Shown: positions 37,653-55,050 of the stretch, piece after piece | Layout of the letters: every line of letters begins with the position of its first letter | How positions within the stretch are numbered: the first letter of the stretch is position 1 | Assembly: GCA_017935565.1 (NCBI GenBank) | Contig: JAGBHK010000035.1 | Coordinates: forward strand, 1-60,190 | Direction of reading: 5' to 3' | Origin: Lachnospiraceae bacterium | GTDB taxonomy: Bacteria > Bacillota > Clostridia > Lachnospirales > Lachnospiraceae | Length of the DNA: 60,190 nt | Translations under genes and position numbers: made by a program | The notes under the pieces: model-generated | Databases searched by the model: none | The model's input: only the letters and a program-made list of their open reading frames with translations | What the model was told of the DNA's origin: nothing

Positions 37653-37703
37653 ATATTTCCCATAAAATCTAGTGTTTTCAAGGATTTTTTTGAATTTATA
37701 AAA

Positions 37704-37735
37704 AACAAGCAGGTATTTTTAAATACCCGCTTGTT
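37704..37735 (-). terminator. Terminator of the type IV pilus operon
   Basis: aacaagc-a-ggtattt pairs with aaatacc-c-gcttgtt and is followed on the minus strand by TTTTTTATAAA. It closes the operon that begins with pilB. Confidence 0.9.
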
Positions 37736-37750
37736 CTATCATTAATCTAA

Positions 37751-40700
37751 TTAATCTAACTTATATAATTCTCTCTTTAAGAGCCTTATGGTCGCCGTTC
37801 CTTTAGCACCAAACATATCCGTTAATTCAATGGTAAATGTTACTCCATATCCATCTTCGATAAGTTGTGACATTTGGTCGGCATATGGTGTAAATATGTT
37901 AAATTCAGTAAATGTACTTTCTCCACCAATTGAGAGAAGAATTTCCTCCATATTTACAACTTTCTTTCCTAATTCTGCAGTTACATAATCATCTGCATCT
38001 GCTGTACCATCACCATTTGCATCTTCTGGATTATGCCATGTAACTTTAGCATCTGCAAACTTACCAACATATGGAAGTAAGTCTCCATCGTAACCATAGA
38101 ATTTGAATTCGTATGTTTCTGCAAATGGTGTAACGAATACATTGTATAAACCATTTGCATATGAACTTTCAAGAACCTTAACATCAGGTGTACTGTTACC
38201 AGCTGAAATAGCCTTAACAACAGTATTAACGAAAAGTTTTAACTCTTCAGGGCTATCCATTGATGAGTGTCCAGCACCTGAATATGTAATATTGTTCTTT
38301 GAATAAATGTAGTAGTTATTACCTGCATCCTTAGCATTATCAATATAATACTGATCCAGTGTCTTAGATGCATTCTCCGCAGCTGTAGCATTTTCATATC
38401 CGTATACATCATATTCTTCTGCTGTTCCGTTACCATCACCTGCAAGTGTATACCAAACTACGATTTCAGGGTCTTCCATATCAAGCTGATACCACTGTGA
38501 ATGAGTTTCAGCAACTGTAAGACTATCAGAAATAGCATATGGATACATTGTTACCTGACCATCGTTAAGTTTTGTAACCTTTGTTGTTTCCATAAGGGAA
38601 GTATAGTTACTAATTGAACCTGTTGTATATGGGTACAATAAGTACTTTCCACTACTTGGAACTTTAACCTCATAATCTACAGCATCGTTATTTCCAATTG
38701 TTGCAACAGAATGTCTGTATGCAAGCATATTTGTAACACCCTGTAATCCGTATAACACTGGTGTGCCATCCTTGTAGTATGGAATGTTCTTAAATTGGTC
38801 TGCAACAAGACTTTCAGCATCACTGATTCCAAATCTATCCATACCTACAACATCTCTAAACATTCTAGACAATGATGTTGCCCATGTGTTTGTACTATGT
38901 TTAGTCAATTCCGAACCACTATATGTCATACCATTAACTGTATTTGAATAACCAATAGTATCATGTGTAAATAATACTGACTTACCTTTTGAAATAAAGT
39001 CATTTAAACAATCAAGGGCACCGTTGTCATTTGAAATATCATCACCACAATACAAATCTGCAAAACCAAGTACAACCATATCATAGTTGTAAAGTCTGTC
39101 AGTTGTCTTATCATCAGGATTATATTTCATACCCATCTTAGATGGATTAAACCAATTTTCGTACTGTTCTGTATAAATAGCATCTACTTCAATATTGTAT
39201 CCGATAATACTTTCAGCGTTATTAATCAACTGATTAAATGCAGCATCTGTTTCCATATTAAGGTTAATACCCTTAGATGTACTATAAGGTACAGGAAGAA
39301 TCTGTAATACGTGAATATTCTTTACTTCCTTACCTTTTATAGCTGTGTATCCTGTTACACCTGCACGATATGGAAGTTCTGCACCTGACGCACTTAATTG
39401 TACAACCTCTAATCTATAGGACATAATACCATTATATTCTTCTGGCAATTTTACGTTTATAGATACTGAAGCCTTACCATCTGCATCTGTTACAACCTTT
39501 GATCTATGATATCTTTCATTCTTATCGTCTGTAACATCACCGCTCTTATTGTATACACCGTCATTATTCTTATCACCATATACACTTATCTGATATGTTG
39601 TATTTGCCAATGCATCAATGCTGAATGAGAATGGTAAATCTGTTCCCTTTTCATTAAACTTATTAACAGTACCTGCTGCATCATATTCAACAGGAGTTGG
39701 TGTCTTAAGATTTAAAATCTTAGGATTTAAATTTCTAAGATAAAGAAGCATTGCACCAATTCTGCCTTCTCTAATTCTATTGGCATCCTTATCGATAGCA
39801 TATTTTGCTATTTCTGCAATATTTGATGTTGGATAAATTGTAGTCGAAGCATCTGTATAATTATATATTTCTTCACCCATTACCAACAATTTTCCTGAAT
39901 CAACAAATTCTTTCAACTGATTACACTTAATCTGTGTAATATCGTTACCACTAAGTCTTACAAGACCAGTCTTATCAGACAACATCGCTGACTGGCTACT
40001 TGCATTAAGACCTTCATTGTTAGCATTTTCAAGAATGTAATACTTTCCTGCTGTTAAATTATTGTATAACAATGGATTCCAAAGTGTAGTATCCATCTTA
40101 TAAATCTTTGTATATGAACCTGAATATGACTTCAATGATGTAATTCCCGCCACAGGGCATGCTGTCTGTCTGTCATTCCATAATGTGTTAGTTACAGGGT
40201 CGTAATCACCTATAGTATAACCATAGTTAACACTTCCCCAATATCCCTTTGAAGTTGTAAGTTCCTTATAATCTTCTGGATAATATACAGAAATACCAGT
40301 CTTACACTTGATTAAATCACCAAATGCAAGATAAATATATCCATTAAGGTTTGTATCGTTGTAAATTGTCTTGCCTTTATCATCCTTAAGTAATAAATCA
40401 TCATTATCACCAAGAATAATTACATCATAATCTGCAACAATATCATCATTTATACCATTAAAACCTGCTGAAGATATACATTCAACGTAAATACATGTAT
40501 TTGCATTAGGGTCGTTGTAGTTATCCTCTGTCAATGGATCATAAATCATATTACCATCGTTATCCATACCGTCTGTTGCCAACAACAGTCTATTAGAAAG
40601 TTTCTTTACTTCCTCGTATGTATCGTAATCAAATACAGTACATGGCTGAATTTCAAGAATCTTTACTCTCTTGTACTTAATTACAGGAGTATCCTTTGCA

Positions 40701-42055
40701 CCAAGCAAATATCTCATAACTTCGATAACGGTTGTAGGATTACCTGTTCTTTCTTCAAAACCAACATTTGCCTGGCCGTAACTTGCATCCTTATTTGAAG
40801 GAATAAGACACGAGTCACCACTAAATACCCAGTAATCATTTGTCAAATAAACAGCGTGAGGAGGGTTGTTATCCTTATACTCACCTGTCTGCTGAGTACC
40901 ACAAATCTTGTAGATATTATCTCTAATCATATCTACATCTGCATCTGCTGCAAATGCTTTCTCCAAATCAAACACACCTGTGTTAAGATTTTCACAGTTA
41001 ATGTATTCATTTCCATTAACGTCTACATTGCTAATATATGGCTTAATTGTAGCAAACTGATCTTTTGTAAGCATTCTAAACAAAAGTTCATACTTGTACA
41101 TATTACCATCTTTATTCAAGTTACTAAACTGCTGGTTGTCCATGATTACAGGAACTGCAGTTGTAACAACTGTACCGTCTGATAATTCCATTGGCTTACC
41201 ATTTATAGTGTACTCCCATAAAAGTTCAACCATTTCCCAACTAATATCACGGCTTTTGTATGTGCCATCAGCATTCATTTCATATGTATTATATGTGATT
41301 TCTCCTGCTGCTGTAACTGGTGTCATATTACCTGTTCCATCAGCATTGATTGTACCTTTGTAAATACCCTCTGGTACATCTCTGGAATCTTCTGTTAATG
41401 TTCCATCTGTAAATGCATTATAACAACCAATTGTACTGTTATCATGTGTACCTGTCGAAATAATGATAAAGTCTGCAGCTAAAATATCTGCCTCTGTAAG
41501 GTCATTTCCTTCTACTGTTCTTAAATCAATATTGCCTTCGAAAAGTTCCTTGTATTCTGGTAATACATAATTTAAGAATCTCTTTGGACTTTCAACTTCG
41601 AATCTATCTTCTTCTGAATAATAGATAAACTGATATCCAAAGTTAGAAAATACATTTCCTACATCATACCAAACATCAGTAACGTCCCACTGACCTGTAT
41701 CATGTTTGATATAACGACCTCTTGTAGAATAATACTTTTCCATAAGAGTTCTGTTTTTTTCAAGGCCTTCTTCTACTCTGTCATCACCAATGTAATAACG
41801 GAATTCGCCTTGACTCTCATGAGGTACAATTTCAAGAATTGTAAATTTTTCCTGAAGTCCGCCAATCATTCTGTCAACTACATATGACAAATATGATTTG
41901 TTATCTTCCGCTACCTCAGGTGCTGCAACTACCTCCGCCGGTTTTTTTACAAAACCATGCCAGATGGAAGTAGCACAAACAGCAGTTGCCAAAACAACTG
42001 CTACAACTTTACTTGTGTTTTTCGAATTTTTAATTTTCTCAAATACTTTTTTCAT
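37751..42055 (-). CDS. 1434-aa exported protein with threefold internal repeat (DUF5057-like), last gene of the pilus operon
   Basis: Function unknown. An N-terminal signal/anchor (residues 17-34, VVAVVLATAVCATSIWHGFV) is followed by three related Rossmann-like modules. Each opens with a hydrophobic strand plus Pro (FTILEIVPHE at 71, VKILEIQPCT at 464, IHVLQILPVP at 914), and each contains a buried 'D-hydrophobic-G' strand (ADFIIISTGTHDN near 194; YDVIILGDND near 543; YDMVVLGFADLY near 991). Modules 2 and 3 also share LKEFVDSGKLLVMGEE / LNDFISKGKSVLFTHD. These look like degenerate glutamine-amidotransferase-like folds. An Ig-like linker lies near 810-890. It is recalled as DUF5057 in Lachnospiraceae (memory, unverified). 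Its position suggests secretion or assembly with pili. Confidence 0.75.
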   Translation of the reverse strand: MKKVFEKIKNSKNTSKVVAVVLATAVCATSIWHGFVKKPAEVVAAPEVAEDNKSYLSYVVDRMIGGLQEKFTILEIVPHESQGEFRYYIGDDRVEEGLEKNRTLMEKYYSTRGRYIKHDTGQWDVTDVWYDVGNVFSNFGYQFIYYSEEDRFEVESPKRFLNYVLPEYKELFEGNIDLRTVEGNDLTEADILAADFIIISTGTHDNSTIGCYNAFTDGTLTEDSRDVPEGIYKGTINADGTGNMTPVTAAGEITYNTYEMNADGTYKSRDISWEMVELLWEYTINGKPMELSDGTVVTTAVPVIMDNQQFSNLNKDGNMYKYELLFRMLTKDQFATIKPYISNVDVNGNEYINCENLNTGVFDLEKAFAADADVDMIRDNIYKICGTQQTGEYKDNNPPHAVYLTNDYWVFSGDSCLIPSNKDASYGQANVGFEERTGNPTTVIEVMRYLLGAKDTPVIKYKRVKILEIQPCTVFDYDTYEEVKKLSNRLLLATDGMDNDGNMIYDPLTEDNYNDPNANTCIYVECISSAGFNGINDDIVADYDVIILGDNDDLLLKDDKGKTIYNDTNLNGYIYLAFGDLIKCKTGISVYYPEDYKELTTSKGYWGSVNYGYTIGDYDPVTNTLWNDRQTACPVAGITSLKSYSGSYTKIYKMDTTLWNPLLYNNLTAGKYYILENANNEGLNASSQSAMLSDKTGLVRLSGNDITQIKCNQLKEFVDSGKLLVMGEEIYNYTDASTTIYPTSNIAEIAKYAIDKDANRIREGRIGAMLLYLRNLNPKILNLKTPTPVEYDAAGTVNKFNEKGTDLPFSFSIDALANTTYQISVYGDKNNDGVYNKSGDVTDDKNERYHRSKVVTDADGKASVSINVKLPEEYNGIMSYRLEVVQLSASGAELPYRAGVTGYTAIKGKEVKNIHVLQILPVPYSTSKGINLNMETDAAFNQLINNAESIIGYNIEVDAIYTEQYENWFNPSKMGMKYNPDDKTTDRLYNYDMVVLGFADLYCGDDISNDNGALDCLNDFISKGKSVLFTHDTIGYSNTVNGMTYSGSELTKHSTNTWATSLSRMFRDVVGMDRFGISDAESLVADQFKNIPYYKDGTPVLYGLQGVTNMLAYRHSVATIGNNDAVDYEVKVPSSGKYLLYPYTTGSISNYTSLMETTKVTKLNDGQVTMYPYAISDSLTVAETHSQWYQLDMEDPEIVVWYTLAGDGNGTAEEYDVYGYENATAAENASKTLDQYYIDNAKDAGNNYYIYSKNNITYSGAGHSSMDSPEELKLFVNTVVKAISAGNSTPDVKVLESSYANGLYNVFVTPFAETYEFKFYGYDGDLLPYVGKFADAKVTWHNPEDANGDGTADADDYVTAELGKKVVNMEEILLSIGGESTFTEFNIFTPYADQMSQLIEDGYGVTFTIELTDMFGAKGTATIRLLKRELYKLD

Positions 42056-42076
42056 TGCTTCTCCCTTCCGGTTTCC

Positions 42077-42751
42077 CTATCTTAAATCAAGTTCTGTAGG
42101 TTTAACACCTGCCAGAGTGCCATTAAACGAGCTAACACTATATATTCTATAGTCATCTATCTTGTTTCTAATTTTCAATACCAATTCATCTGTCTTGTTC
42201 TCTTTTTCTGTTCCTATTTTCAATGTCAATTTTATTGAAATCGGATTATCATAAAAATATCTTGTTACTGTTGAATATGAATTATCCTCATTTTTAACAA
42301 TCATTTCTTCCTCACCTGGAACAGTCGCAATATCTATATCAAAATCAAGAACATTCTCTGACAAAAGATAACCATCTGGAATACTATCCATATATTTTCC
42401 TGTCAAATATAATTTACCATCTGTATATGTGATAACACATTCTGTATGCTTACCAGCTTCAGATTCAACTAAAAGTTTATTTGTATTAATATCTATCTCG
42501 CCTGTGTAGATTCGCACATCATCACCACATTTCACGACATTAATAGCTTTCGCTTCCATAAACTTCTCTGTCAACTGGTTTTGAACAATTTGCAATTCGT
42601 TCTGCAAATCTATTTGTTCGTTTTCATTTTTAAACATTGATGTTGAACTAATCATCATGGAAATTATAAGGGTAGAGACTATGGCTGCTATCGCCATTGC
42701 TACAAGCAACTCTACCAAGGAAAAACCTTTATCATTTAGTTTTGTGTTCAT
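42077..42751 (-). CDS. Type IV prepilin-like minor pilin (PilW/GspJ-like)
   Basis: Minor pilin candidate of 224 aa. It has a class III signal sequence MNTKLNDKG|FSLVELLVAMAI with cleavage after Gly9 and Glu5 of the mature helix present. A hydrophobic N-terminal helix of about 22 residues and a beta-rich head follow (VVKCGDDVRIYTGEIDINTNKLLV...). Membership in the PilW/GspJ group is suggested by gene order only. It is one of four consecutive prepilin-like genes. Confidence 0.85.
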   Translation of the reverse strand: MNTKLNDKGFSLVELLVAMAIAAIVSTLIISMMISSTSMFKNENEQIDLQNELQIVQNQLTEKFMEAKAINVVKCGDDVRIYTGEIDINTNKLLVESEAGKHTECVITYTDGKLYLTGKYMDSIPDGYLLSENVLDFDIDIATVPGEEEMIVKNEDNSYSTVTRYFYDNPISIKLTLKIGTEKENKTDELVLKIRNKIDDYRIYSVSSFNGTLAGVKPTELDLR

Positions 42752-42766
42752 AGTCTCCTCCTTTCA

Positions 42767-43324
42767 TTAATAGTGAATATCCACTTTTCCAGATACAAAA
42801 TACAAATCAACGGATGCTTCCTTCGCTCCACTTACAAACTTAATTGTAATCATATTTTCCGAAGGTGTAAGTTCTGTACCATCTAAATCAACTATTTTAA
42901 CGCTTCCTGATGCTTGATCAAACTTTATTGTAAGCATATCACCATCTGCAAATTCAGTTTCTGAACCATCTGCAATAATAGAACCTACAACTCTGAATCC
43001 AAGGTCTTCTGCTTCTATCTTTTCTTCTACAGTTGCGCCAGTATCATCAGTATACACTTTATATATTTCTGTGTAATAGTTATCGCCATCTCGAGTCAAA
43101 GTATAATACCATGCATCTGCAACTACTGACATAGTTTTAGTTCTTGTTGTTTCAAGAAATGAACCCGTAGTTCTTGCAGCGTTTTTCAAATTACTTCCAT
43201 TCAACACATTGAATGCAACAATAGAACCACTGACAAGCACTGCTATAATAGCCAAAATAACCATAAGTTCAATAAGTGTAGCACCTTTATTATTAAGTTT
43301 TAATTTAGTTGGCACTGTCATCAT
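42767..43324 (-). CDS. Type IV prepilin-like minor pilin (GspH/FimT-like)
   Basis: 185 aa. The prepilin leader LKLNNKG|ATLIELMVILAI keeps the G|x cleavage site and mature Glu5, though residue 1 is Ala instead of Phe. The single hydrophobic helix is followed by a short beta-rich head containing TTRTKTMSVVADAWYYTLTRDGDNYYTEIY, a pattern typical of GspH/FimT pseudopilins. GGAGG lies 4 nt ahead of the first ATG (a second ATG follows directly). It overlaps the upstream gene by 20 bp. Confidence 0.85.
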   Translation of the reverse strand: MMTVPTKLKLNNKGATLIELMVILAIIAVLVSGSIVAFNVLNGSNLKNAARTTGSFLETTRTKTMSVVADAWYYTLTRDGDNYYTEIYKVYTDDTGATVEEKIEAEDLGFRVVGSIIADGSETEFADGDMLTIKFDQASGSVKIVDLDGTELTPSENMITIKFVSGAKEASVDLYFVSGKVDIHY

Positions 43325-45761
43325 ACTTCCTCCAGTTATTTAAACTAACTATATCATCATACTCAAGTGTTTCAATCTTAACTTCTTCGCTACCATCACC
43401 CTGAGCACTTCTCTTATATGCCCAGAAATAATCTCTAAATGCAACCTCTTCATCAATTGTTTCATTGAGATAGTTAAATTCCCAAGTTAACAACTGCTCA
43501 ACAAGATTTAAATCTGTTGTAACCGCTGCATTTGCTGTTACTCTAATATTTCCCTTTGACACAATCAAACCTGTGAAATCATGATTTACAATAACATCAC
43601 CTGTTGCAACTATAATGCCACCTGTAATTTCTGATGGAATTGTATATGAATCATCAATTGCAACCTTTGTTAATGTAAGCGCATATGGTAATGTTGATTC
43701 CAATGCTTTTGTAGGCATTTCATCATTATATCCAGATGCTTTTACTAATTCCCAGTCAATAATATTTTCTGTAGCAGAACGAACAAATTCAGAACCGTCT
43801 GTTACATAACCATTTTGATACTTAAACAATGCATCATCGATTGTAACAATATCACCATCGATAACGTATCTTGAACCATTTTCAACAAATGGGAAACTTA
43901 CTAACAAGTGTGATATAGTCTTATATCTGTTTGTAAGGTCTAATGATGAAAGTGAAAATTCAGCCTGGTTAATACCCCACTGGTATCCTTCACCTGTTAT
44001 ACCTGAAACACCGCCACCGCTAGTCTGCATAAGCACACCTGCTGTATAAATAGAACCACCATTTGTTACTTTAACTGCACCTGATGTTGTAACATCTTCT
44101 GATAAAAGTGCATTTGCGTAATCATCTAATTTATCGGCTAATTCTGAAGCCTTTCCATCAAGAACGCCTGCAATAAATTTTGCAGCACTGTCTTTATCTT
44201 TAAAGTTAAAATATACATATGTACGGTCGTCTACATTTCTTATTTCATAAGGATTTGTAGCATCTAATAATCCTTCATCAAATGCAAAGAAACCTGTCAT
44301 ATCTACTAATTTAATATTATTTTCAGGTACCGCTGCTTCCTCTACCAATTTTTCCCATACAGACTTTGGCATAGGGTTAGCTACAGATTTTTCTCTGCCA
44401 ACTGCTATATATTTTGCAGGAACCAAATATAACTCCTGGTTACCTGTAAATGAAAGCGATTCACCTGTCATGTATGAATCTACTCCATCCACTTCATAAC
44501 TAATATATGAATGTCCACCGATTACTAATTTACTAAGTGAAGTAGCATCGCCACCTAAATTAACGATACTTCCTGCACCATCAATGATAATCGCACTACT
44601 CATAGTATGAAGGTCTGTAGCTGCATTACCATCGTATCTGTAACCGTAATACTCACCACCAACATTTACTAAACTATTCTTTCCTGAAACGTTCAAATCG
44701 TCCGCAATGAAAGATGAACAATCAGAACCGATTGTAAGTTCAGCACCTGCTGTGATATCCTGTTTTAATACTGTTTCATTTTTAGCAAGATTAAGGTTTG
44801 TACACCAAAGTCTTGAATTAGACAATGACATTTTAGCCTTATTTCCATATGTTTCTGAACTACCCATTAACACAATATTATTTCCTGCAACAACATCTGA
44901 TGTTGTACCGCCTGAAAAATAGTTTGGTCCCACCGTCAATGAACCAATTCCTGACGAACCAGATGTAATAAGAATATCACCACCTGCATAAATACTTGCA
45001 TTTATTGTTGCATTAGCATTCTGTGTAGAAGATGCAACATTAATGTTTCCATCTGCTATAAATGCGTAATTCTTAAACTCTTTAAGTCTCTTTGTTGCCG
45101 AAAAGTCAACCATCATATTTGGATATGCAATGTCAAGGTCAACTGTAACATTTGCAAAATATGTATCTGTAGCCTTTTCAGCCTTATAATCAATTACCAC
45201 ATTGTTAATGATAATCTCATTCTTTATACCATTGTAATCTTTAATAAATGTTACACTTTCAATATCTTTTACATCAGCAAATTTCAACTCTTCTTTGGCA
45301 ATATATGTCTCCAAATATGCCTCAACATTCTGTTTTGTGATATCAGTTGTATCTTCGTACATCGTTGTAATACTCTTAAAATCAACATTTCCATTTGTTA
45401 ATTTTTCAGTAACTCCAACCATGAAAAGTTCCTGAAGTTTTTCATTTGCTTCTTCGTTGCTAAGCATATAATCAACAGTTCCATCTGTTACAATCAAACT
45501 AGAAAGAACTTCTTCATAGGCATCAGCCATAGCAACCATACTATCCTTACCTACTCCAACCTTAATTTCGTCCAATACGGATTCAGCTGTGTAAAATGTT
45601 TCCTTAGAACTATTGTCAATTCTCTTCATAACAATATTTCCAATAGCCGCAGCCAAAAGAGCAGACGCCAACAACGACACAAATGCCATAGCTAAAAGTG
45701 TCATAGTAAGAGTAGAACCACTATTATTCAATTTTTTTATGTTAAATTTACCCTTTAGCAT
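43305..45761 (-). CDS. Large PilX/GspK-like pilus-tip protein with beta-helical region
   Basis: 818 aa. The prepilin-like N-terminus KKLNNSG|STLTMTLLAMAFVSLL has the Gly cleavage site but lacks the mature Glu5, as in GspK/PilX tip subunits. An alpha-helical stretch (residues 35-220) precedes a long region of Gly/Asn/Ser-rich beta repeats (GNINVASSTQNANATINASIYAGGD; VVAGNNIVLMGSSETYG) suggestive of a beta-helix or bactofilin-like fold. The frame is open to 45815, but GGAGG 5-6 nt before the ATG at 45761 sets the start, one base after the preceding stop. Much larger than ordinary PilX; an adhesive tip is possible. Confidence 0.8.
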   Translation of the reverse strand: MLKGKFNIKKLNNSGSTLTMTLLAMAFVSLLASALLAAAIGNIVMKRIDNSSKETFYTAESVLDEIKVGVGKDSMVAMADAYEEVLSSLIVTDGTVDYMLSNEEANEKLQELFMVGVTEKLTNGNVDFKSITTMYEDTTDITKQNVEAYLETYIAKEELKFADVKDIESVTFIKDYNGIKNEIIINNVVIDYKAEKATDTYFANVTVDLDIAYPNMMVDFSATKRLKEFKNYAFIADGNINVASSTQNANATINASIYAGGDILITSGSSGIGSLTVGPNYFSGGTTSDVVAGNNIVLMGSSETYGNKAKMSLSNSRLWCTNLNLAKNETVLKQDITAGAELTIGSDCSSFIADDLNVSGKNSLVNVGGEYYGYRYDGNAATDLHTMSSAIIIDGAGSIVNLGGDATSLSKLVIGGHSYISYEVDGVDSYMTGESLSFTGNQELYLVPAKYIAVGREKSVANPMPKSVWEKLVEEAAVPENNIKLVDMTGFFAFDEGLLDATNPYEIRNVDDRTYVYFNFKDKDSAAKFIAGVLDGKASELADKLDDYANALLSEDVTTSGAVKVTNGGSIYTAGVLMQTSGGGVSGITGEGYQWGINQAEFSLSSLDLTNRYKTISHLLVSFPFVENGSRYVIDGDIVTIDDALFKYQNGYVTDGSEFVRSATENIIDWELVKASGYNDEMPTKALESTLPYALTLTKVAIDDSYTIPSEITGGIIVATGDVIVNHDFTGLIVSKGNIRVTANAAVTTDLNLVEQLLTWEFNYLNETIDEEVAFRDYFWAYKRSAQGDGSEEVKIETLEYDDIVSLNNWRKYDDSAN

Positions 45762-45762
45762 T

Positions 45763-46860
45763 CTATTCCTCCTTGGTTGAAGTAAATGTCGTAATAATCT
45801 CTCCATCTGCTGCACCGTATCTTACTGTAACATTCATTAAGAATAATGAATCTGCATAATTATCTGAAGAATATGTAAGTGTTCCCTCTGAAACTCTATC
45901 TTCCATCTCTCTTCCGATATTTGTATTAATCTTCAAAACATCCTGCAATGCAATGTTATATTCTGAAAGTTTTCTTGTCATACCATTGATTGATACTGTT
46001 ACATTATCTGCTTTAAGTCTTGAATATTTATTGATATCTGTTTGATTTTTAGTAGGCTGTTCTGCCAAATACAATGTAAATTCTGGTGAATCAGTATTAC
46101 CATTATGACCAATAAATGAATATGAAATATTAATCTTATCTGTCGCGTAGTAATTACCTTCTGAATCTGGCTCTATAGCACTTATCTTATCAAATATAGC
46201 TGCCAAGATATATGCACTATGATCTTCATCAGCTGAATATGTCTTTTCAACAGAACCACCATCAATAGTTTTAACTGTTCCATCAGCCAAAACATATGTA
46301 AAATCAAATGATATTGTATATGTATAATTATAAGCCTCTAAAACTTTATTCTCAGCACATTCAATAGTTACATCACAAGTTTTTGTACTACCTGCTTTTG
46401 GAATAGTACTATCATACTCTACATATTGTTTAAAAACAATTGCAGTATTGCTTCCGTACAGATTGGAAAACAATGGTAAAACTCCACCGTTTACGCAATT
46501 GCCTTCCGAATCATATACTATATTAGGGTCCAACTCTACATCTACGAAGAAATCTTCGCCATTGGCACCTTCCATCTCAATTCCTGAAAAATTGTATACA
46601 TCCAATTTCCCATCTGCTTTGGTTACTGTATATGCATACTTATCCAGCAATCTAGATAAAGGCTCTGACTTAAACTCCTCAGCAGTATCCTGAGCAGTCA
46701 ATGTCGCATTTTGCAATTTTCTTGCGGACGCATTAATCTTCATAGTTTCAACAAAACTTTTTACAAATGGGAATGATATTATAGACAATATCAAAACCGC
46801 TATTACTACTTCAATTAATGTAAAACCGCTATTATTCTTTTTTACTGAATTCATACGCAT
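45763..46860 (-). CDS. Type IV prepilin-like minor pilin (PilV/GspI-like)
   Basis: 365 aa. The leader MNSVKKNNSG|FTLIEVVIAVLIL has correct cleavage site, Phe1 and Glu5 of the mature pilin, and a hydrophobic helix. The large C-terminal head contains beta-rich stretches such as YNYTYTISFDFTYVLADGTV. GGAG lies 4 nt before the first ATG; a second ATG two codons in is an alternative. It follows the PilO-like gene directly. Confidence 0.85.
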   Translation of the reverse strand: MRMNSVKKNNSGFTLIEVVIAVLILSIISFPFVKSFVETMKINASARKLQNATLTAQDTAEEFKSEPLSRLLDKYAYTVTKADGKLDVYNFSGIEMEGANGEDFFVDVELDPNIVYDSEGNCVNGGVLPLFSNLYGSNTAIVFKQYVEYDSTIPKAGSTKTCDVTIECAENKVLEAYNYTYTISFDFTYVLADGTVKTIDGGSVEKTYSADEDHSAYILAAIFDKISAIEPDSEGNYYATDKINISYSFIGHNGNTDSPEFTLYLAEQPTKNQTDINKYSRLKADNVTVSINGMTRKLSEYNIALQDVLKINTNIGREMEDRVSEGTLTYSSDNYADSLFLMNVTVRYGAADGEIITTFTSTKEE

Positions 46861-46870
46861 CTATCTCCAA

Positions 46871-48007
46871 CTAGTATTCCTGTACCTTACCTGTTACTGT
46901 ACCAATTGTAAATCTTGGTCTTTCTGGATCATCATTAACTACTGTATAATTAAGTGTTAAATCTGAATCATTTGCTATACTAAGTTCTACACCACTATAG
47001 TCATCATCGCCAACTCTAGGTGAACTTACGATTACCATATCAAGCGAATCACCAACCAAATAATCCATACCTAACTGATACTTATCTGCTGGAACTGTTT
47101 CATTACCAAGTCTGTATGCAAACTTGTATTCGCCTTCCTTACCCATAATGATAAGTGTTACTTTTTCTGTTGTGTTAGATGAAACAGAAAGTGTATTTGT
47201 TCCTGTAATATCTGACATTGTACCTATAGCAACTGAACTTGAATCCTTATTTTCATGATGTAATGTTAAGAACAAGTCGTAATTTGTCTTAATAAAGTCT
47301 GCATAATCGCCATCTGTTGTCGATGGTATAAATGTTGATGATTCAAATATATTGTCTGTACCAATATGAGGATCTTTAAGTAAAATATCCTTATATTCTC
47401 TATCACTACCTAAAATACCATATGTTACAAGCTGCATCGAACCTGTAAGTTTATCTTCGCTGTCATTATATGTAAGTGTCATATTGCTAATCTTTGATTT
47501 ATCTTCATGGTCATTAATATATGAAACTAAATCTTTCAATTCTGTATATGTACTCTCGAAATTTAAATTTAACACAGAGTTAACGCCTACATAATCACTA
47601 ACATAAACTGTCTGTCCAACTCTATTTGGATCGCTTGATGTTATTTCACCAAAAGTATACAAACTAGAAATACCAGCTAATGTACCACTCTTAATCCAAG
47701 CACCTGACTTTTCTTCACCAATCTTTAAAGACATAATAATATGTTCCTGATCAAGACCACCTGAATATCTATCCATAATTCCCTTATAGACATCTGCATT
47801 TTTTGTTGTCTGTTCAGTATAATATGCTCTATCATCATCCTTAGATTTTAAATCAGTATATCTTTTTTCTAATTCTGCTACTTGCAACTTTGTCTGTTCA
47901 TTCGTAGTTTTAATTTTCTTGCTGCCCCACCAGCCGCCTCCGACAAGGGCCAAAATCAATACGAACAGCAATAACTTTAAGTCTCTTTCACTAATATTTA
48001 ACTTCAT
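46871..48007 (-). CDS. pilO: PilO-like inner-membrane alignment protein
   Basis: 378 aa, positioned directly after the PilMN fusion. There is a short cytoplasmic N-terminus and one membrane span (residues 11-26, LLLFVLILALVGGGWWG). A coiled coil follows (TTNEQTKLQVAELEKRYTDLKSKDD), then two ferredoxin-like regions; the typical PilO sequence 'FxSTYTELKDLVSYINDHED' is visible (NFESTYTELKDLVSYINDHE). It would link the cytoplasmic motor ring to the assembling pilus. It is longer than diderm PilO (about 200). Confidence 0.8.
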   Translation of the reverse strand: MKLNISERDLKLLLFVLILALVGGGWWGSKKIKTTNEQTKLQVAELEKRYTDLKSKDDDRAYYTEQTTKNADVYKGIMDRYSGGLDQEHIIMSLKIGEEKSGAWIKSGTLAGISSLYTFGEITSSDPNRVGQTVYVSDYVGVNSVLNLNFESTYTELKDLVSYINDHEDKSKISNMTLTYNDSEDKLTGSMQLVTYGILGSDREYKDILLKDPHIGTDNIFESSTFIPSTTDGDYADFIKTNYDLFLTLHHENKDSSSVAIGTMSDITGTNTLSVSSNTTEKVTLIIMGKEGEYKFAYRLGNETVPADKYQLGMDYLVGDSLDMVIVSSPRVGDDDYSGVELSIANDSDLTLNYTVVNDDPERPRFTIGTVTGKVQEY

Positions 48008-48029
48008 ATGCCTGTCCTCTCATTTCTGT

Positions 48030-49634
48030 TTATTCTTCGTCGTTATTTTCTGCGTCTTCTTCTGTTTCTTTTTCTTCTACACCTGCAAACTGTCCAATAC
48101 TTTCATCGTTATAGAAGAAACATGTTGCAGAAAATGTTGTTGTGATACCACCATAAACATCTTTTTTCTCATTAAAATTACTTACTGCTACGCTTGTAAC
48201 ATTATCAATTCCTTTTAACTGACTTATGAAAGTTGCCATTGTGGGCTTAATACTAGTCTTAGCTGAGATTGTAACAGCCCCCTCATTAATAGTCATTGTT
48301 GTAATAGAAATATCACTAGGCAATTTCTTTTCAAGTTCAATAAGGAAGTTTAATAATACGTCATTATTTCCTCTTGTAAGTGCTGCAAATGTCTTTGCAT
48401 CTGTTGCCATATCTGTAATATTATAATAATTTGATACTAATGTTTCTACGTCTGATATGGCAGATATCTTCTTTTCTAAATCCGCTTTATCTTTCTTGTA
48501 GTTAATCGAATCAATTACTGGTTTTGCAAGGAGTCCAACACATACAACTGCTGCTACTAATACGCCTAAACCAATTAATTTAATATTACTTGCACTTGCC
48601 TGTTTCGCTTTCTTTTCCATTGTAACGAAATCAGCTGGTGCTACAATTGAACCGATACATCCAATATAGTTAACTAATTTATTTGGTTCCATGCTAAGAT
48701 CTGCTGTCTTAACATTCTTCATCTTTTTAATAACCTTAACTGAGAAGTTAAATTCAGAAGCAAAAAGTTCATCCAAACCAATGATATTATCACCAATATA
48801 ATAAGCCTTCTCAATAGGATTTTCAGGATTTCTTGAAGCATAGTAGTCCATTACTCTGGAAATATTATTTACAAGATATCTAAGAGAGTTTGTAATCATA
48901 TCTCCATCAAAACTTGGATGTACATACTGCTCTGTACAAAGAAGTTCTGTAGCTTCTTCCTCTGTAATTCCTCTCATATCCATAAGTGTTTCTGTTAAAA
49001 CATCTCTACCATAAGGAATTACTCTATGTAACTGAAGTACATTGTTTTTGATAATATTAACAATGGTACTGTCTTCCATAAGCTGGATTGTAAGGTTTAC
49101 GCCCTTATCAACATGTTTCTGTAATACCTGTAATGCACTATTACCAAAATAGTCAATTGTCTGAATATTATAGCCATTTTCAGCAGCAATCTGATAATAT
49201 GGCGTAATCATATCCTTTGGTGCAGCCATAAGAAGTACTCTCATGTTCTTTTCACCATTCTCTGTAACTGTCTCAAGTACGTTATGAGCAAGAATATAAT
49301 CATTGATATCTACAGGATAGAATTCTGTTGCATTTGATTCAATATACTCTGCCAATTTCTTATCACTAAGAACTGGTGTTGAAATCTCCTTAATAGCAAT
49401 CTTTGTTGAGAATACTGAGAATACAACATCCTTTGTCAATATACCCTTAGCTGTAACTTTTTCATTAATTACATCAGCCAATGCTTTGTAATCTGTAATG
49501 ATATCATCCTGAATACAACCTTCAGGTGTTTTTACTCTAGCAATTTTATTTACTGTTATTCCGCCTTTACTCGAAACTTCCGCCATTCTGATATAAGAAG
49601 ATTCGATGCTTATTGTTAAAATAGTATTTGCCAT
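48030..49634 (-). CDS. pilM: PilM-PilN fusion (pilus alignment platform)
   Basis: 534 aa. Residues 1-335 are an actin-like PilM domain (ILTISIESSYIRMAEV at the phosphate-1 region; IQTIDYFGNSALQVLQK; SRVMDYYASRNPENPIEKAYYIGD). Residues 350-534 resemble PilN: a membrane span (about 359-380), a coiled coil (YKKDKADLEKKISAISDVETL) and an extracytoplasmic ferredoxin-like domain (LPSDISITTMTINEGAVTISA). In most systems these are two proteins, with PilM binding a short PilN peptide; here they are one chain, fixing stoichiometry 1:1. The C-terminus is strongly acidic. GGAG lies 6 nt before the ATG. Confidence 0.88.
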   Translation of the reverse strand: MANTILTISIESSYIRMAEVSSKGGITVNKIARVKTPEGCIQDDIITDYKALADVINEKVTAKGILTKDVVFSVFSTKIAIKEISTPVLSDKKLAEYIESNATEFYPVDINDYILAHNVLETVTENGEKNMRVLLMAAPKDMITPYYQIAAENGYNIQTIDYFGNSALQVLQKHVDKGVNLTIQLMEDSTIVNIIKNNVLQLHRVIPYGRDVLTETLMDMRGITEEEATELLCTEQYVHPSFDGDMITNSLRYLVNNISRVMDYYASRNPENPIEKAYYIGDNIIGLDELFASEFNFSVKVIKKMKNVKTADLSMEPNKLVNYIGCIGSIVAPADFVTMEKKAKQASASNIKLIGLGVLVAAVVCVGLLAKPVIDSINYKKDKADLEKKISAISDVETLVSNYYNITDMATDAKTFAALTRGNNDVLLNFLIELEKKLPSDISITTMTINEGAVTISAKTSIKPTMATFISQLKGIDNVTSVAVSNFNEKKDVYGGITTTFSATCFFYNDESIGQFAGVEEKETEEDAENNDEE

Positions 49635-49682
49635 ATCTTTCTCCTCTGCTTTATATTATAATTTAATAGTTTTCATCTATAT

Positions 49683-50468
49683 TTAACTGTAAAACTGCAT
49701 GTACCATTCTATGATTTGTTCACCATATAGCATCGTAATAAATATTCCGATTGATAAATATGGTCCAAAGGCAAGCACATTGTCGCGTTTACAGATTTTC
49801 ATCAACGCTATGTGTATAATCGAACCGATTACACATCCCAAAACCAAAGCCAAGACTATGTTCCCGACTCCTACCAAAAGTCCTGCTGCGGCCATAAGTT
49901 TCACATCACCGCCGCCAATTCCTCTGCCTTTTGTAAGATAGAATAATAACAGTAACGGTACACTGACTGCTATCATTCCTATTAATAATTCAATTATTTC
50001 ATCACTATTATTTCTATAGTTTATAACTCTTGCAATTCCTGTAATAAGTATAAAAATGTTTAACTGTACTGGAATCTCGTATGTTCTCCAATCTATAACA
50101 CTTAACACAAGAAGTGCAGACGTGCATAAACAGAATAAGATACTATCCACAACTACTGTTATGTCGGTACTTATTCCGCCATTTGCATAAAAAATCCATA
50201 CATACCCGATACCATTAGCAAGCTCTACCAATGGATATTGTACGGATATCTTTTCTTTACAATGTCTGCATTTTCCTCTAAGTAAAATGTAGCTCACAAG
50301 TGGTACTAAATCGTACCACTTGATTTTATTGCCACATTTCATACAATGAGACCTTTCTGTCGCAATATTCTCTTTTAATGGTAATCTGTATATTAATACG
50401 TTTAGGAAACTCCCGATAATAACGCCATATACAAATATAATAATCAACAAAATTGTCTCAAATTGCAT
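49683..50468 (-). CDS. pilD: Prepilin peptidase / N-methyltransferase (PilD)
   Basis: Polytopic aspartyl protease of 261 aa that trims prepilin leaders and methylates the new N-terminus. The cytoplasmic zinc motif has both CxxC pairs (Cys42/45 and Cys67/70: HCMKCGNKIKW...GKCRHC). The catalytic aspartates lie in VIDWRTYEIP (near 125) and GxGD (GIGGGDVKLM, near 190). The length is full. It sits between the major pilin and PilMN genes. Confidence 0.93.
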   Translation of the reverse strand: MQFETILLIIIFVYGVIIGSFLNVLIYRLPLKENIATERSHCMKCGNKIKWYDLVPLVSYILLRGKCRHCKEKISVQYPLVELANGIGYVWIFYANGGISTDITVVVDSILFCLCTSALLVLSVIDWRTYEIPVQLNIFILITGIARVINYRNNSDEIIELLIGMIAVSVPLLLLFYLTKGRGIGGGDVKLMAAAGLLVGVGNIVLALVLGCVIGSIIHIALMKICKRDNVLAFGPYLSIGIFITMLYGEQIIEWYMQFYS

Positions 50469-50491
50469 AATAGTTCACCTTTTAAAAAGTA

Positions 50492-50965
50492 TTAGTTACC
50501 TGATACAGACATAGGCTTTGCTTTATTGTCTTTATCCTTTGTCTTTGTACAATTATTCACTGCAGAACCATCTTTTGAAGCAAAAACTGTAACCTGTGTA
50601 TTACCATCAGAAACATCAATCTTTACATAAATATCAGAAGAAGCATTACATGTAGCTGTTAATTCTGGGGCTGTAGATCCGATAGATTCCTTTAACGCAG
50701 TACCAAGATCAGATGTTCCTGATAAAATTTCAGATAATTTAGTTGCCTTTAAACCACTTGCAGCTTCTTCAGCAACTGCTTCTGTAGCTAAAGCATCATT
50801 TACTCTACCATAAACTGTATCAAGGTTCTGTAAATCCTTTGATTCTCTTGACTTTTCAATGTTACCGATAAGTGTTGGTGCTAATACACCCATAAGTACT
50901 GCCATAATAGCAATAACTACGATAAGTTCTACTAATGAGAAACCTTTGTTGTTCATTTTGTTCAT
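50492..50965 (-). CDS. pilA: Major type IV pilin
   Basis: 157 aa. The leader is MNKMNNKG|FSLVELIVVIAIMAVL: eight-residue basic leader, cleavage before Phe, mature Glu5. The head domain is small (LQNLDTVYGRVNDALATEAVAEEAASGLKATK...) with two Cys in the C-terminal half (CNASSD; VNNCTKTKDK), which could form the disulfide of a D-region. Its place after pilC and before pilD, and its small size compared with the other prepilin-like genes, favour the major subunit. The C-terminus is lysine-rich. Confidence 0.88.
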   Translation of the reverse strand: MNKMNNKGFSLVELIVVIAIMAVLMGVLAPTLIGNIEKSRESKDLQNLDTVYGRVNDALATEAVAEEAASGLKATKLSEILSGTSDLGTALKESIGSTAPELTATCNASSDIYVKIDVSDGNTQVTVFASKDGSAVNNCTKTKDKDNKAKPMSVSGN

Positions 50966-51043
50966 AATTCTTTTTTCTCCTTTACGTTTTAAATTTTTAA
51001 TTTATAATATAGCGAACTCGGGCAATTCGCGTATATCCACTTT

Positions 51044-52252
51044 TTAGCCTAACTGTTCGTACATAGCCATCATTGGTCCGTATATTGCTCCGATAAGTAA
51101 ACATACGATACCAGCCATTACAACCAAGATAACTGGCTCCATAAGAGCTGTTGCCTGTTGAGTTGTTGTTTCAACTTCTTCATCATAATAATTAGCCGCA
51201 TTTGTAAGCATTTCTTCCATATTACCAGTTTCTTCGCCAATACCAAGCATATGAAGAATCATTGGTGGGAATATTCCTGATGCCTTAAGTGGTGCCGATA
51301 AAGCCATACCTCTTTGAACCTGACGAGCAGCTTCTTCAACGGCATCTCTAAAGAGTACATTATCCATAGTTCTAGCTGTAATATCGATAGCTTCAAGCAT
51401 TGGCATACCTGCTGCTAAAAGAGTTGACAAAGTTCTGGCAAATCTTGAACACTGTGTCTTAACACCAAGTAATCCAAACACAGGAACCTTCATCATAAAT
51501 CTAGCAACTATTCTCGAGCCGTTTTCGGTTCTCTTAAATATATTAAATGCTACTACTGCTCCAACTATGACTGCTATGTAAACAATCCAATACTTCTGTA
51601 GTGATTCACTAAGTTTAACCACCGCTACAGTAAACGCCGGTAAACTACCACCTACTTGATCAAACATCGCTTCAAAGTTTGGAATAACTACTACAAGTAA
51701 TACAACCATAACTGCGATACATACAACTATAAGTACGCAAGGATACATTAACGCTTTCTTAACCATACCCTTAATCTTCGCATCTTTCTCAAACTGGATA
51801 CTCATACGTTCAAGAGATGTCTCCAAACTACCTGATGCTTCACCAGCTTCAATCATACTGATAAGGATACCAGGGAAGATTGCTCTTTCCTGCTTAAATG
51901 CATCTGTTAAAGTACCACCCTTTTCAACATTATTCTTAATGTTCATAATAGCTTCTTTTAAAGACTTATTAGCAGTCTGTTCACTTAACATACCAAGTGC
52001 TGATACGATACTAACACCAGCATTAAGAATACTAACAAACTGACGACAGAAAACTGATAAATCTCTCGATGGAATCTTCTTTGCTCCACCGAATTTCAAG
52101 TCCTGATTAAGGATACTCGCTTCGCTTAATTTAAGAATACTATTACCTTCTGCACGAAGGGCGTCTCTTGCTTTTTCTAAACTAGTCGCTTCTATGGTAC
52201 CTTTTTTGTTTTTACCATCTTTAGTAACGACTTCATAAGTATACTGTGCCAT
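51044..52252 (-). CDS. pilC: Type IV pilus inner-membrane platform protein PilC
   Basis: 402 aa with two T2SSF domains. The first has IPSRDLSVFCRQFVSILNAGVSIVSALG and the second VKTQCSRFARTLSTLLAAGMPMLEAID. Three membrane spans (about 167-190, 216-238 and near the C-terminus, ILVVMAGIVCLLIGAIYGPMM) are as in PilC/GspF. It anchors the PilB/PilT motors. Confidence 0.95.
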   Translation of the reverse strand: MAQYTYEVVTKDGKNKKGTIEATSLEKARDALRAEGNSILKLSEASILNQDLKFGGAKKIPSRDLSVFCRQFVSILNAGVSIVSALGMLSEQTANKSLKEAIMNIKNNVEKGGTLTDAFKQERAIFPGILISMIEAGEASGSLETSLERMSIQFEKDAKIKGMVKKALMYPCVLIVVCIAVMVVLLVVVIPNFEAMFDQVGGSLPAFTVAVVKLSESLQKYWIVYIAVIVGAVVAFNIFKRTENGSRIVARFMMKVPVFGLLGVKTQCSRFARTLSTLLAAGMPMLEAIDITARTMDNVLFRDAVEEAARQVQRGMALSAPLKASGIFPPMILHMLGIGEETGNMEEMLTNAANYYDEEVETTTQQATALMEPVILVVMAGIVCLLIGAIYGPMMAMYEQLG

Positions 52253-52272
52253 ACTGACCTACCATTCCTTTC

Positions 52273-53331
52273 CTAGAATAACAATTTCTTCTTAAGAGCT
52301 GCATAATCCTGGGCATACTCTAATGCAGTTTCTGCCGCAATAGTTCCCATTGTATATAAATCATATAATGCATCATCCATAGTTTGCATACCCAACTTCT
52401 TGTTCGTCTGCATCATAGAAGGAATCTGGAATGATTTATTCTCTCTAATAAGGTTCTTAACAGCACTGTTCATATGTAAAACTTCAAATGCTGCAACTCG
52501 CTTGTCCCCTTTAAGTGTTGGTACAAGTTGCTGTGAAATAACACATTCAAGTACCATCGCAAGCTGAACTCTAATCTGCTGTTGCTGATGTGGTGGGAAT
52601 ACGTCGATAATACGATCAATAGTAGCCGCCGCACCAATTGTATGTAATGTTGATAATACCAAGTGACCTGTTTCAGCTGCTGTTATAGCTGTCTGAATAG
52701 TTTCAAGGTCACGCATCTCACCTACAAGAATAACATCAGGATCTTCACGAAGTGCTGCTCTTAAAGCATTGGCATATGACATTGTGTCATTTCCTACTTC
52801 TCTCTGGTTAACTGTAGCCATCTTATGCTGATGTAAATATTCTATAGGGTCTTCCAATGTAATAACATGGGAAGTTAAGTTTTCATTAACCTTATTTATA
52901 ATAGAAGCAAGTGTAGTAGACTTACCACTACCTGTAGGTCCTGTTACAAGAATAAGACCTCTTTTCTTCTTATACAAATCTATAACGCTGGCTGGAATCT
53001 CAAGTTCTTCCACGCTAGGAATATCTGTAGATACAAGACGGAAAGCTGCAGCTAATGTACCTCTCTGCTTGTAAGCATTTACTCTGTATCGTCCCATTCC
53101 CTTCAATGCAAAGGAAAAGTCAACCTCTCCCTTTTCTTCCAACACTGCTCTGTGATGTTCACTGATAATAGGAAGTAATATAGCCTCTGTGTCTGCTGGT
53201 AAAAGTCTTGGATAATCCATATTGATAAGTTTACCTGCAACTCTGTACTTAGGAGGCACACCAACCGTAATATGTACGTCGGATGCCTGTGCTTCTTCAG
53301 CTTGTGTCATTAATTCTTCTATAGTAACCAT
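52273..53331 (-). CDS. pilT: Pilus retraction ATPase PilT
   Basis: 352 aa hexameric ATPase. The N-terminal PAS-like half (ASDVHITVGVPPKYRVAGKL) is followed by Walker A GPTGSGKST (near 132), Asp box (TLEDPIEYLH), Walker B (DPDVILVGEMRD), His box (GHLVLSTLHT) and the PilT-specific AIRNLIRE-like motif (VKNLIREN). Presence of PilT argues for retractile type IV pili rather than a type II-like or competence pseudopilus. Confidence 0.95.
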   Translation of the reverse strand: MVTIEELMTQAEEAQASDVHITVGVPPKYRVAGKLINMDYPRLLPADTEAILLPIISEHHRAVLEEKGEVDFSFALKGMGRYRVNAYKQRGTLAAAFRLVSTDIPSVEELEIPASVIDLYKKKRGLILVTGPTGSGKSTTLASIINKVNENLTSHVITLEDPIEYLHQHKMATVNQREVGNDTMSYANALRAALREDPDVILVGEMRDLETIQTAITAAETGHLVLSTLHTIGAAATIDRIIDVFPPHQQQQIRVQLAMVLECVISQQLVPTLKGDKRVAAFEVLHMNSAVKNLIRENKSFQIPSMMQTNKKLGMQTMDDALYDLYTMGTIAAETALEYAQDYAALKKKLLF

Positions 53332-53343
53332 TCTAATCCTCCA

Positions 53344-55050
53344 TTATACTTCATCTGCACTGTATGTAACTTTAACCATCTCAGCGAAAGAAGTAACGCC
53401 TTCTTTAACGTATTTAGCAGCCGAGTTTCTAAGCGAACTCATACCTTCCGACTCAGCAGCAGCCTTCAATTCATCTGCTGTAGCGTTAGCTGCAATAAGA
53501 TTTCTAAGTTTCTTTGTAATAGTCATAATCTCGTAAATACCGATACGTCCTTTATAACCTGTACCACATTCCTGACAACCTACTGGGTCGCATAATGTAA
53601 GTGGCTCTGACAATGGAACACCTAACTGTCTCTTTTCATCATCAGTTGCTGGTCTTGAACTCTTACATTTGCAAAGTCTTCTTACAAGACGCTGAGCAAT
53701 AATACCAACTAATGAGTCACCCAAAAGGTATGGCTCAATACCCATATCAATAAGACGACCGACTGTACCTGCTGTACTGTTTGTATGAAGTGTACTAACA
53801 ACCAAGTGACCTGTGATAGATGCTCTAACAGCGATTTCTGCAGTTTCACCATCACGAATCTCACCGATCATGATAATGTCAGGGTCCTGACGTAAGATAG
53901 AACGAAGACCACTGGCAAATGTCATATCTGCTTTAACATTAACCTGTACCTGATTTACACCATCAATATTTGCTTCTACAGGGTCTTCTACAGTTACAAT
54001 GTTAACATCTTCTTTATTAAGTTCGCTAAGAGCTGTATACAATGTTGTAGACTTACCACTACCTGTAGGTCCTGTTACAAGAATGATACCATTAGGATTC
54101 TTCAAAATGTTATCAAACTTTTCTAAATCTTCAGGTCTTAAACCTAAATCTTTCTTATCCTTATTGAAACCTTCCTTAGAAGCAAGACGCATAACGACCT
54201 TCTCGCCATAAACTGTAGGAAGGTTGGAAACTCTTATATCCCATTCCTTAAAGTCTACCATCAATGTGATACGACCATCCTGTGGTTTTCTCTTTTCTGA
54301 AATATCCATACCTGATATAATCTTAATTCTGGCGATAATGGCTGAGAATAAAGCCTTATCATATGTAATAATTTCTCTAAGATTACCATCGACACGGTAT
54401 CTAACTCTAACATTAAATTCAAATGGTTCAATATGTATATCACTGGCTCTCTGACGTACAGCCTGTTCAATAATGTTATTAACCAACTGTACAATAGGAG
54501 AGTTCTCTACGTCATCTCTTCTAGCAGCATCCTCTTCTTCATCATCAAACATATAGCCTTCCTGTTCTTTTTTGAACTGTTCAGCCATAGCCTGCGCCTG
54601 CTGCTTTCCATAATACTTATCAATAACTGCATCAATGTGCGACTTCATCGCAAGCACTGGTTCAACCTGCATACCTGTAACGATACTTAAGTCGTCCATC
54701 GCAAAAATATTCATAGGGTCAGACATGGCAACTATTAAAACATTTGCCGCTGTCTTTGATATAGCGATAGGAATAAGATTGTACTTACGCACTAACTGTT
54801 CATTAACCATATGAACTGCCTTATCATCTATCTCATAATTTCTGACATCCACAAACTCAATTCCTAACTGAGTCTGTAAAGCTCTCATAATATCTTCTTC
54901 TGTGATGTAGCCCAACTCCACGAGCATCTCACCAAGGAACTTACCTTTTTCCTTCTGCTGAGCTAATGCATCATCCAACTGTTCCTGAGTAATATAGTCG
55001 TATTCAACGAGAATATCACCCAACCTAACTCTTTTTCTGTAACCCGCCAT
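53344..55050 (-). CDS. pilB: Pilus extension ATPase PilB with MshEN-like N-terminus
   Basis: 568 aa, first gene of the operon. Residues 1-140 carry two MshEN half-motifs (RLGDILVEYDYITQEQL and FLGEMLVELGYITEED), the known c-di-GMP-binding type; the first has Asp where Gly is usual. The ATPase core has Walker A GPTGSGKST (near 325), TVEDPVE, Walker B DPDIIMIGEIRD and GHLVVSTLHT. The zinc-binding tetracysteine lies near 455-500 (CKCKS...CDPVGCQECGTGYKGRIGIYEI). The family length is complete. Confidence 0.95.
   Translation of the reverse strand: MAGYRKRVRLGDILVEYDYITQEQLDDALAQQKEKGKFLGEMLVELGYITEEDIMRALQTQLGIEFVDVRNYEIDDKAVHMVNEQLVRKYNLIPIAISKTAANVLIVAMSDPMNIFAMDDLSIVTGMQVEPVLAMKSHIDAVIDKYYGKQQAQAMAEQFKKEQEGYMFDDEEEDAARRDDVENSPIVQLVNNIIEQAVRQRASDIHIEPFEFNVRVRYRVDGNLREIITYDKALFSAIIARIKIISGMDISEKRKPQDGRITLMVDFKEWDIRVSNLPTVYGEKVVMRLASKEGFNKDKKDLGLRPEDLEKFDNILKNPNGIILVTGPTGSGKSTTLYTALSELNKEDVNIVTVEDPVEANIDGVNQVQVNVKADMTFASGLRSILRQDPDIIMIGEIRDGETAEIAVRASITGHLVVSTLHTNSTAGTVGRLIDMGIEPYLLGDSLVGIIAQRLVRRLCKCKSSRPATDDEKRQLGVPLSEPLTLCDPVGCQECGTGYKGRIGIYEIMTITKKLRNLIAANATADELKAAAESEGMSSLRNSAAKYVKEGVTSFAEMVKVTYSADEV

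Follow-up and report, generated by a model that had tools for sequence, protein, structure and literature searches.

What does a very large exported protein do at the end of a type IV pilus operon in a bacterium with a single membrane? The question is raised by a contig of 60,190 nucleotides from a Lachnospiraceae bacterium (assembly GCA_017935565.1, contig JAGBHK010000035.1; this whole stretch is called the window), whose minus strand carries at 37751-55050 the genes pilB, pilT, pilC, pilA, pilD, pilMN, a pilO-like gene, four minor-prepilin genes and the gene for an exported protein of 1434 amino acids (aa), hereafter the giant. An earlier note, made from the sequence alone, had suggested that the giant and the 818-aa PilX-like protein are not standard pilus parts and may form a tip or be export cargo. 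We consider it probable that the operon encodes a retractable, type IVa-like monoderm pilus with a two-part tip, in which a PilX cap carries a docked giant, a member of the DUF5057 family, that grips a surface ligand; the tip location, the docking through the giant's tail, the polysaccharide nature of the ligand and adhesion under retraction are what we infer from the evidence below.

DUF5057 genes and pilus operons

The genes lie where the earlier note had placed them, all open and co-directional, with gaps of no more than 78 bp calculated from the coordinates, and the pilX and pilH reading frames overlap. The earlier claim of a complete monoderm type IV pilus operon is upheld: Pfam finds PilB/PilT, PilMN, PilD and N_methyl prepilins, and the type IVa set of extension and retraction ATPases, prepilin peptidase, PilM/N and prepilins is present in one operon. 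The names PilO-like and PilX rest on position, the N-terminal helix and relatives; the PilO-like protein had no matches in Pfam and NCBIfam scans, and PilX matches no Pfam family. Pilus and DUF5057 are both already known, the latter as a named Pfam family that has no function assigned to it (PF16480), which the giant matches with 183.4 bits against a gathering cut-off of 27.9.

Linkage was evaluated in a family sample of 200 Lachnospiraceae genomes, in a phylum sample of 398 genomes, and in the best 80 of 334 relatives in public genomes, which came from an alignment-based search (a single-sequence search gave none). DUF5057 occurs in 48 of the family genomes and the PilMN profile, at a cut of E <= 1e-80 chosen after the values were seen, in 64; both are present in 47 genomes, the pilus only in 17, DUF5057 only in one and neither in 135 (Fisher p 3.9e-30, uncorrected for relatedness). 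Even in the lone DUF5057-only genome (G020), pilB, pilT and pilC stand immediately before a 652-aa DUF5057 gene. Pil genes adjoin the giant in 46 of the 48 carriers, and in the other two (G007, G094) the locus runs into the end of its contig, so that the co-occurrence which the earlier note had named as a check is borne out. Seven of the 398 phylum genomes carry DUF5057, all seven adjoining pil genes; a further family of the class is represented among them, as is a distant one (f33) by three genomes (L115-L117) whose DUF5057 gene and pilB are divergent. DUF5057 was absent from 14 control genomes. Among the best 80 public loci, pil genes lie beside the giant in 69, and 10 of the remaining 11 start at or near a contig edge; a giant widespread without pilus genes, the counter-case that the note had described, was not seen, these loci containing one clear orphan (L161). 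The open reading frame (ORF) closest upstream of a labelled giant is pilJ in 44 of 54 cases from the first set and in 63 of 82 from the public set, and the giant is found in the gut Lachnospiraceae Roseburia, Lachnospira and Agathobacter. These data support the view that the giant and PilX belong to the pilus operon.

PilX and the tapirins

The suggestion that both large proteins lie outside the standard pilus parts does not hold for PilX, which by position and N-terminus is a standard capping minor pilin that lacks the glutamate at mature position 5 (Glu5); what does stand is that its tapirin-like head is unusual. The cleavage-site Gly is present in 53/53 aligned relatives and Glu5 in 0/53, and counts over the four minor pilins give Glu5 in 0/66 for PilX, 60/60 for PilV, 59/59 for PilH and 65/66 for PilJ. 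Absence of Glu5 is described as the mark of a capping pilin in excerpts of PMC12040237. The Pfam family PilX_N is not found in the window's PilX and matches 2/53 of its relatives. The length of 818 aa is counted from the ATG at 45761; an upstream GTG start gives a version of 836 aa.

Tapirins are cellulose binders of heat-loving bacteria whose genes lie beside a pilus operon, and PilX is predicted to share their C-terminal fold. The PilX profile matches 4wa0, by its structure title a Caldicellulosiruptor kronotskyensis protein, at E 4.2e-4, and hhalign of PilX against tapirin alignments gives E 2e-9 over 358 columns, N-terminal helix included. When used in the phylum sample the PilX profile reached 82/398 genomes, many via the pilin helix alone, and led to single-contig genomes of one genus; in one of these (L260) a 642-aa protein spans the entire 4wa0 chain (E 6.8e-229) and a 660-aa paralogue resembles 6n2b. 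The tapirin pair follows pilV in the pilus operon in L260 and L263, and L262 has a second copy set apart by other genes. In all six tapirins of these three loci a basic leader precedes Gly-Ser and the place of Glu5 is taken by Val or Ile, and paralogues are nearly identical in their N-terminal part and differ in the head; judged by sequence and gene order, tapirins occupy the capping-pilin slot. At 642-660 aa the Caldicellulosiruptor proteins are smaller than the window's PilX, which unlike them is followed by pilH, pilJ and the giant and for which cellulose binding is putative. Tapirins serve lignocellulose attachment (excerpts of PMC9933333).

Many PilX proteins end near a conserved Asn-Trp motif (NWxK), which was considered as the giant's partner. 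That role was set aside because inspection by eye shows the motif at the C-terminus of PilX in several giantless operons as well.

The giant, its tail and the distal PilX domain

The threefold repeat noticed earlier is recovered by profile comparison, with repeats 1 and 3 reaching only E 6.2e-4 (other pairs in Table 1); repeat 3 has a predicted ThuA-like fold, and repeats 1 and 2 are far less conserved. A hydrophobic N-terminus after Lys/Arg is present in 68/73 giant relatives, and a prepilin motif, LPxTG or C-terminal membrane segment in none of the 73, so that identification of the giant as a pilin or as a sortase-anchored protein was rejected. It was likewise rejected as a PilY1 homologue by sequence, as Pfam and NCBIfam give no PilY1/PilC family at E <= 0.1. 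A likeness to GH2 beta-galactosidases, the top Foldseek matches, concerns the sandwich domains only (TM ~0.1) and was not used.

The tail is more conserved than the remainder of the C-terminal domain, and in the structure model the final strand stops 7 residues short of the C-terminus. Among 73 relatives (one of them, L176, frame-broken) position -5 is Leu in 62, -4 is Phe in 66, -2 is Leu in 67, and -1 is Asp in 49, Asn in 12 and Glu in 5; these counts omit seven loci, three judged contig-cut (L123, L174, L175) and four tail-less (L156, L182, L185, L186). In the first set a regular expression for the tail picks out 43 of 54 labelled giants, along with two terminal giants among the 257 unlabelled ORFs; in the public set it picks out 63 of 73 labelled giants and 1 of 543 unlabelled ORFs. 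In the window's own genome the Asp-ending pattern has 11 matches in the DNA (control 15), of which the sole one closing an ORF of >20 codons is the giant.

Pilus operons negative for DUF5057 occur in 17 genomes, 16 of them readable (G139 is cut), and 5/16 carry another terminal exported giant: 918 aa ending FFMLD (L096) and 935 aa ending IKDLD (L097), both distant kin of the window's giant (hhalign E 1.4e-10 and 1.7e-6), 1024 aa ending LFNLE (L221), 802 aa ending LFDLD (L223), and 2303 aa cut by the contig end (L224). Thus the head varies and the tail stays. PilX varies as well, its alignment reaching approximately the first 353 of 815 model columns in giantless operons and nearly all in giant-bearing Lachnospiraceae. 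In the 16 readable operons a giant is present in 5/6 with the distal PilX domain and 0/10 without it (p 0.0014, with a domain cut picked after the values were seen). Over two overlapping locus sets, tail and distal domain occur together in 95 loci, the domain without the strict tail in 11 (several being near matches), neither in 5 and the tail alone in 0.

PilJ beside giants (L118-L197) ranges from 166 aa (127 where cut) to 1202 aa, and four long PilJ proteins that were scanned have no Pfam head domain over cut-off. One giantless pilus operon encodes a 2475-aa prepilin-type protein (L099:5223-12650), and another locus a 1396-aa PilJ (L103:5070-9260); both have a large head fused to the pilin and no exported giant after it.

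A putative two-part tip and its alternatives

Diderm pili are primed by PilY1 together with four minor pilins, all of which remain at the tip, and PilX has no Glu5. According to excerpts of PMC13190605 and PMC7541494, minor pilins are followed by PilY1 in diderm type IVa pili, the variable N-terminus of PilY1 is outermost, and models show PilX-PilY1 beta-strand complementation. The window has motors, platform, PilMN-PilO, major pilin, three Glu5 minor pilins (PilV, PilH, PilJ), a Glu5-less PilX and a Sec-type non-pilin encoded with these FimU/PilV/PilW/PilX-type minor pilins; it repeats the diderm layout, which argues for the giant as a tip protein on the PilX cap. The four minor pilins would assemble first as a priming and tip complex capped by PilX, whose tapirin-fold beta-helix head would point outward. 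Via its tail L-F-x-L-D/N/E the Sec-exported giant would dock on this cap, probably adding a beta-strand to it in the way that models show for PilY1 and PilX. Its three Rossmann-type repeats and beta-sandwich spacers would be pushed out with the pilus to bind a ligand on a surface, a polysaccharide of plant or host being the likeliest, so that PilT retraction would then pull on the giant.

The giant resembles PilY1/PilC as a large Sec-exported non-pilin encoded after the minor pilins, with a variable head, a conserved C-terminus and a Glu5-less PilX as expected partner. It differs from them in having no sequence match, a DUF5057 body in which ThuA-like repeats take the place of a beta-propeller, its conservation in a short tail, and a monoderm host. 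In other Bacillota, exported VWA-domain proteins follow the minor pilins (L261:1763-3736, L266:12222-14774), sharing the operon slot and export signal with the giant but carrying a VWA domain instead of DUF5057; a gene similar to these occurs in L264. The modular pilins PilB and PilC of Streptococcus sanguinis likewise place adhesive heads on minor pilins in a monoderm, but the head, of VWA or lectin type, is fused to the pilin, with no separate exported giant in the excerpts of PMC6916266. ComZ of Thermus differs as the DNA receptor of a competence pilus. Whether the Bacillota as a whole follow one plan is evenly balanced in our judgment: the Glu5-less capping pilin would be a tapirin-type beta-helix and tapirins would be capping pilins, the Lachnospiraceae cap carrying a swappable DUF5057 head via a universal LFxLD tail, a monoderm counterpart of PilX-PilY1 with unrelated heads gripping polysaccharide in gut and plant-degrading bacteria.

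Several observations weigh against the proposed tip. Docking of the tail on PilX is a prediction by analogy, and the tail is not universal: giants of Clostridium (L182, L185, L186) and Desulfosporosinus (L156) end otherwise, and those of the three f33 genomes end in Arg-Tyr. The pairing with PilX also has exceptions: L219 has a full PilX and no giant, L116 and L117 have a giant beside a PilX that lacks the distal domain, and in L156, L182 and L186 the PilX that accompanies the giant matches in part. Foldseek alone gives no significant match for PilX (4wa0 E 0.25). The public loci overlap between locus sets and are not independent. For the orphan among the best 80 (L161:10079-11650), a DUF5057 fragment of 523 aa that ends in LFDLD, the 10 kb upstream contain no pil genes. 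Finally, three His and one Asp are conserved in repeat 3, a possible sign of an enzyme.

This last point would suit a giant that is a ThuA-like, polysaccharide-active enzyme at the pilus tip and not a pure adhesin, which we think unlikely given that conservation is much weaker in repeats 1 and 2, that Pfam enzyme families have no matches in it and that fold likeness alone is no proof of activity. An enzymatic ThuA-like fold could also fit a giant released as cargo by a type II-like secretion piston, as could its Sec-type N-terminus, its operon-terminal position and a minor pilin set like GspHIJK; however, a monoderm requires no outer-membrane export step, pilT is present, the tail is conserved beyond the rest of the C-terminal domain, and the distal PilX domain and the giant co-occur, so that this reading is rather improbable. 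Of the two roles offered by the earlier note, the tip is favoured over export cargo. That the giant does no more than share the transcript, being otherwise a secreted or wall-associated protein in its own right, is very improbable: its interactions are putative and the f33 genomes transcribe the giant away from pilB, but linkage and co-occurrence hold across distant families and a wall-sorting motif occurs in 0/73 relatives.

Table 1. Features of the pilus operon in the window, in order of transcription, with their evidence.
Feature	Size or residues	Coordinates	Strand	Evidence
pilB, extension ATPase	568 aa	53344..55050	-	PF00437 E 1.7e-138
pilT, retraction ATPase	352 aa	52273..53331	-	PF00437 E 9.1e-47; PilT name from sequence and order
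pilC, platform protein	402 aa	51044..52252	-	open frame, order, relatives at equivalent place
pilA, major prepilin	157 aa	50492..50965	-	N_methyl E 6.5e-9
pilD, prepilin peptidase	261 aa	49683..50468	-	A24_N_bact E 6.1e-36; Peptidase_A24 E 9.2e-19
pilMN, fused PilM-PilN	534 aa	48030..49634	-	PilM_2 E 3.3e-22; PilN E 9e-6
pilO-like	378 aa	46871..48007	-	position and N-terminal membrane segment
pilV/GspI-type minor prepilin	365 aa	45763..46860	-	N_methyl E 1.5e-7; TIGR02523 PilV E 2.2e-7, under its cut-off
pilX/GspK-type capping minor prepilin without Glu5	818 aa	43305..45761	-	cleavage Gly, no Glu5 in relatives
PilX tapirin-like beta-helix region	226-782	43416..45086	-
pilH/FimU-type minor prepilin, Glu5 present	185 aa	42767..43324	-	N_methyl E 4.8e-6
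pilJ/PilW-type minor prepilin, Glu5 present	224 aa	42077..42751	-	N_methyl E 1.3e-7
exported giant, DUF5057 protein	1434 aa	37751..42055	-	PF16480 E 1.1e-53
giant Sec-type N-terminal region	~1-45	41921..42055	-	most hydrophobic 18-residue window at residue 17
giant repeat 1	62-455	40691..41872	-	hhalign repeat 1-2 E 1.8e-5
giant repeat 2	456-785	39701..40690	-	hhalign repeat 2-3 E 1.3e-10
giant beta-sandwich linker	786-908	39332..39700	-	strands in structure model; E 1.7e-4 to C-terminal domain
giant repeat 3, ThuA-like alpha/beta domain	909-1290	38186..39331	-
giant C-terminal beta domain	1291-1427	37775..38185	-	structure model
giant conserved C-terminal tail LYKLD	1430-1434	37754..37768	-	conservation in 73 relatives
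intrinsic terminator after giant		37702..37737	-	-20.4 kcal/mol, z -8.05

The strong terminator that had been noted at the operon end is a hairpin with a U-tail equalled by 0/200 shuffles, although absent from a simple terminator-scan list; the hairpin that lies between pilC and pilA does not stand out from shuffled sequence (z -1.16, 24/200 shuffles as good). The single promoter named in the earlier note is putative, promoter-like sites being about as frequent in the window as in shuffles (98 against 88.0 +/- 9.5). A riboswitch 5' of pilB was rejected, Rfam returning just one tRNA in the window, as was spread by plasmid or phage (no match at E 1e-5). The next gene past the terminator (33161-37567) encodes a surface protein of 1468 aa that contains Listeria-Bacteroides repeats and has a hydrophobic segment at its C-terminus.

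No paper mentioning DUF5057 or describing such a tip protein was found, nor was the LFxLD tail or a PilX-tapirin capping family, the absence for tapirins being limited by the accent-spelled name and by a literature set that leaves the primary tapirin papers uncovered. Surface attachment by monoderm type IV pili is called an open question in excerpts of PMC6916266, and the DUF5057 family, the five-residue tail and a capping pilin whose fold links to cellulose binders are testable parts of an answer. If the proposal is true, tapirins would be explained as pilus-cap adhesins, and the common gut Lachnospiraceae named above would have a mechanism of attachment to polysaccharide.
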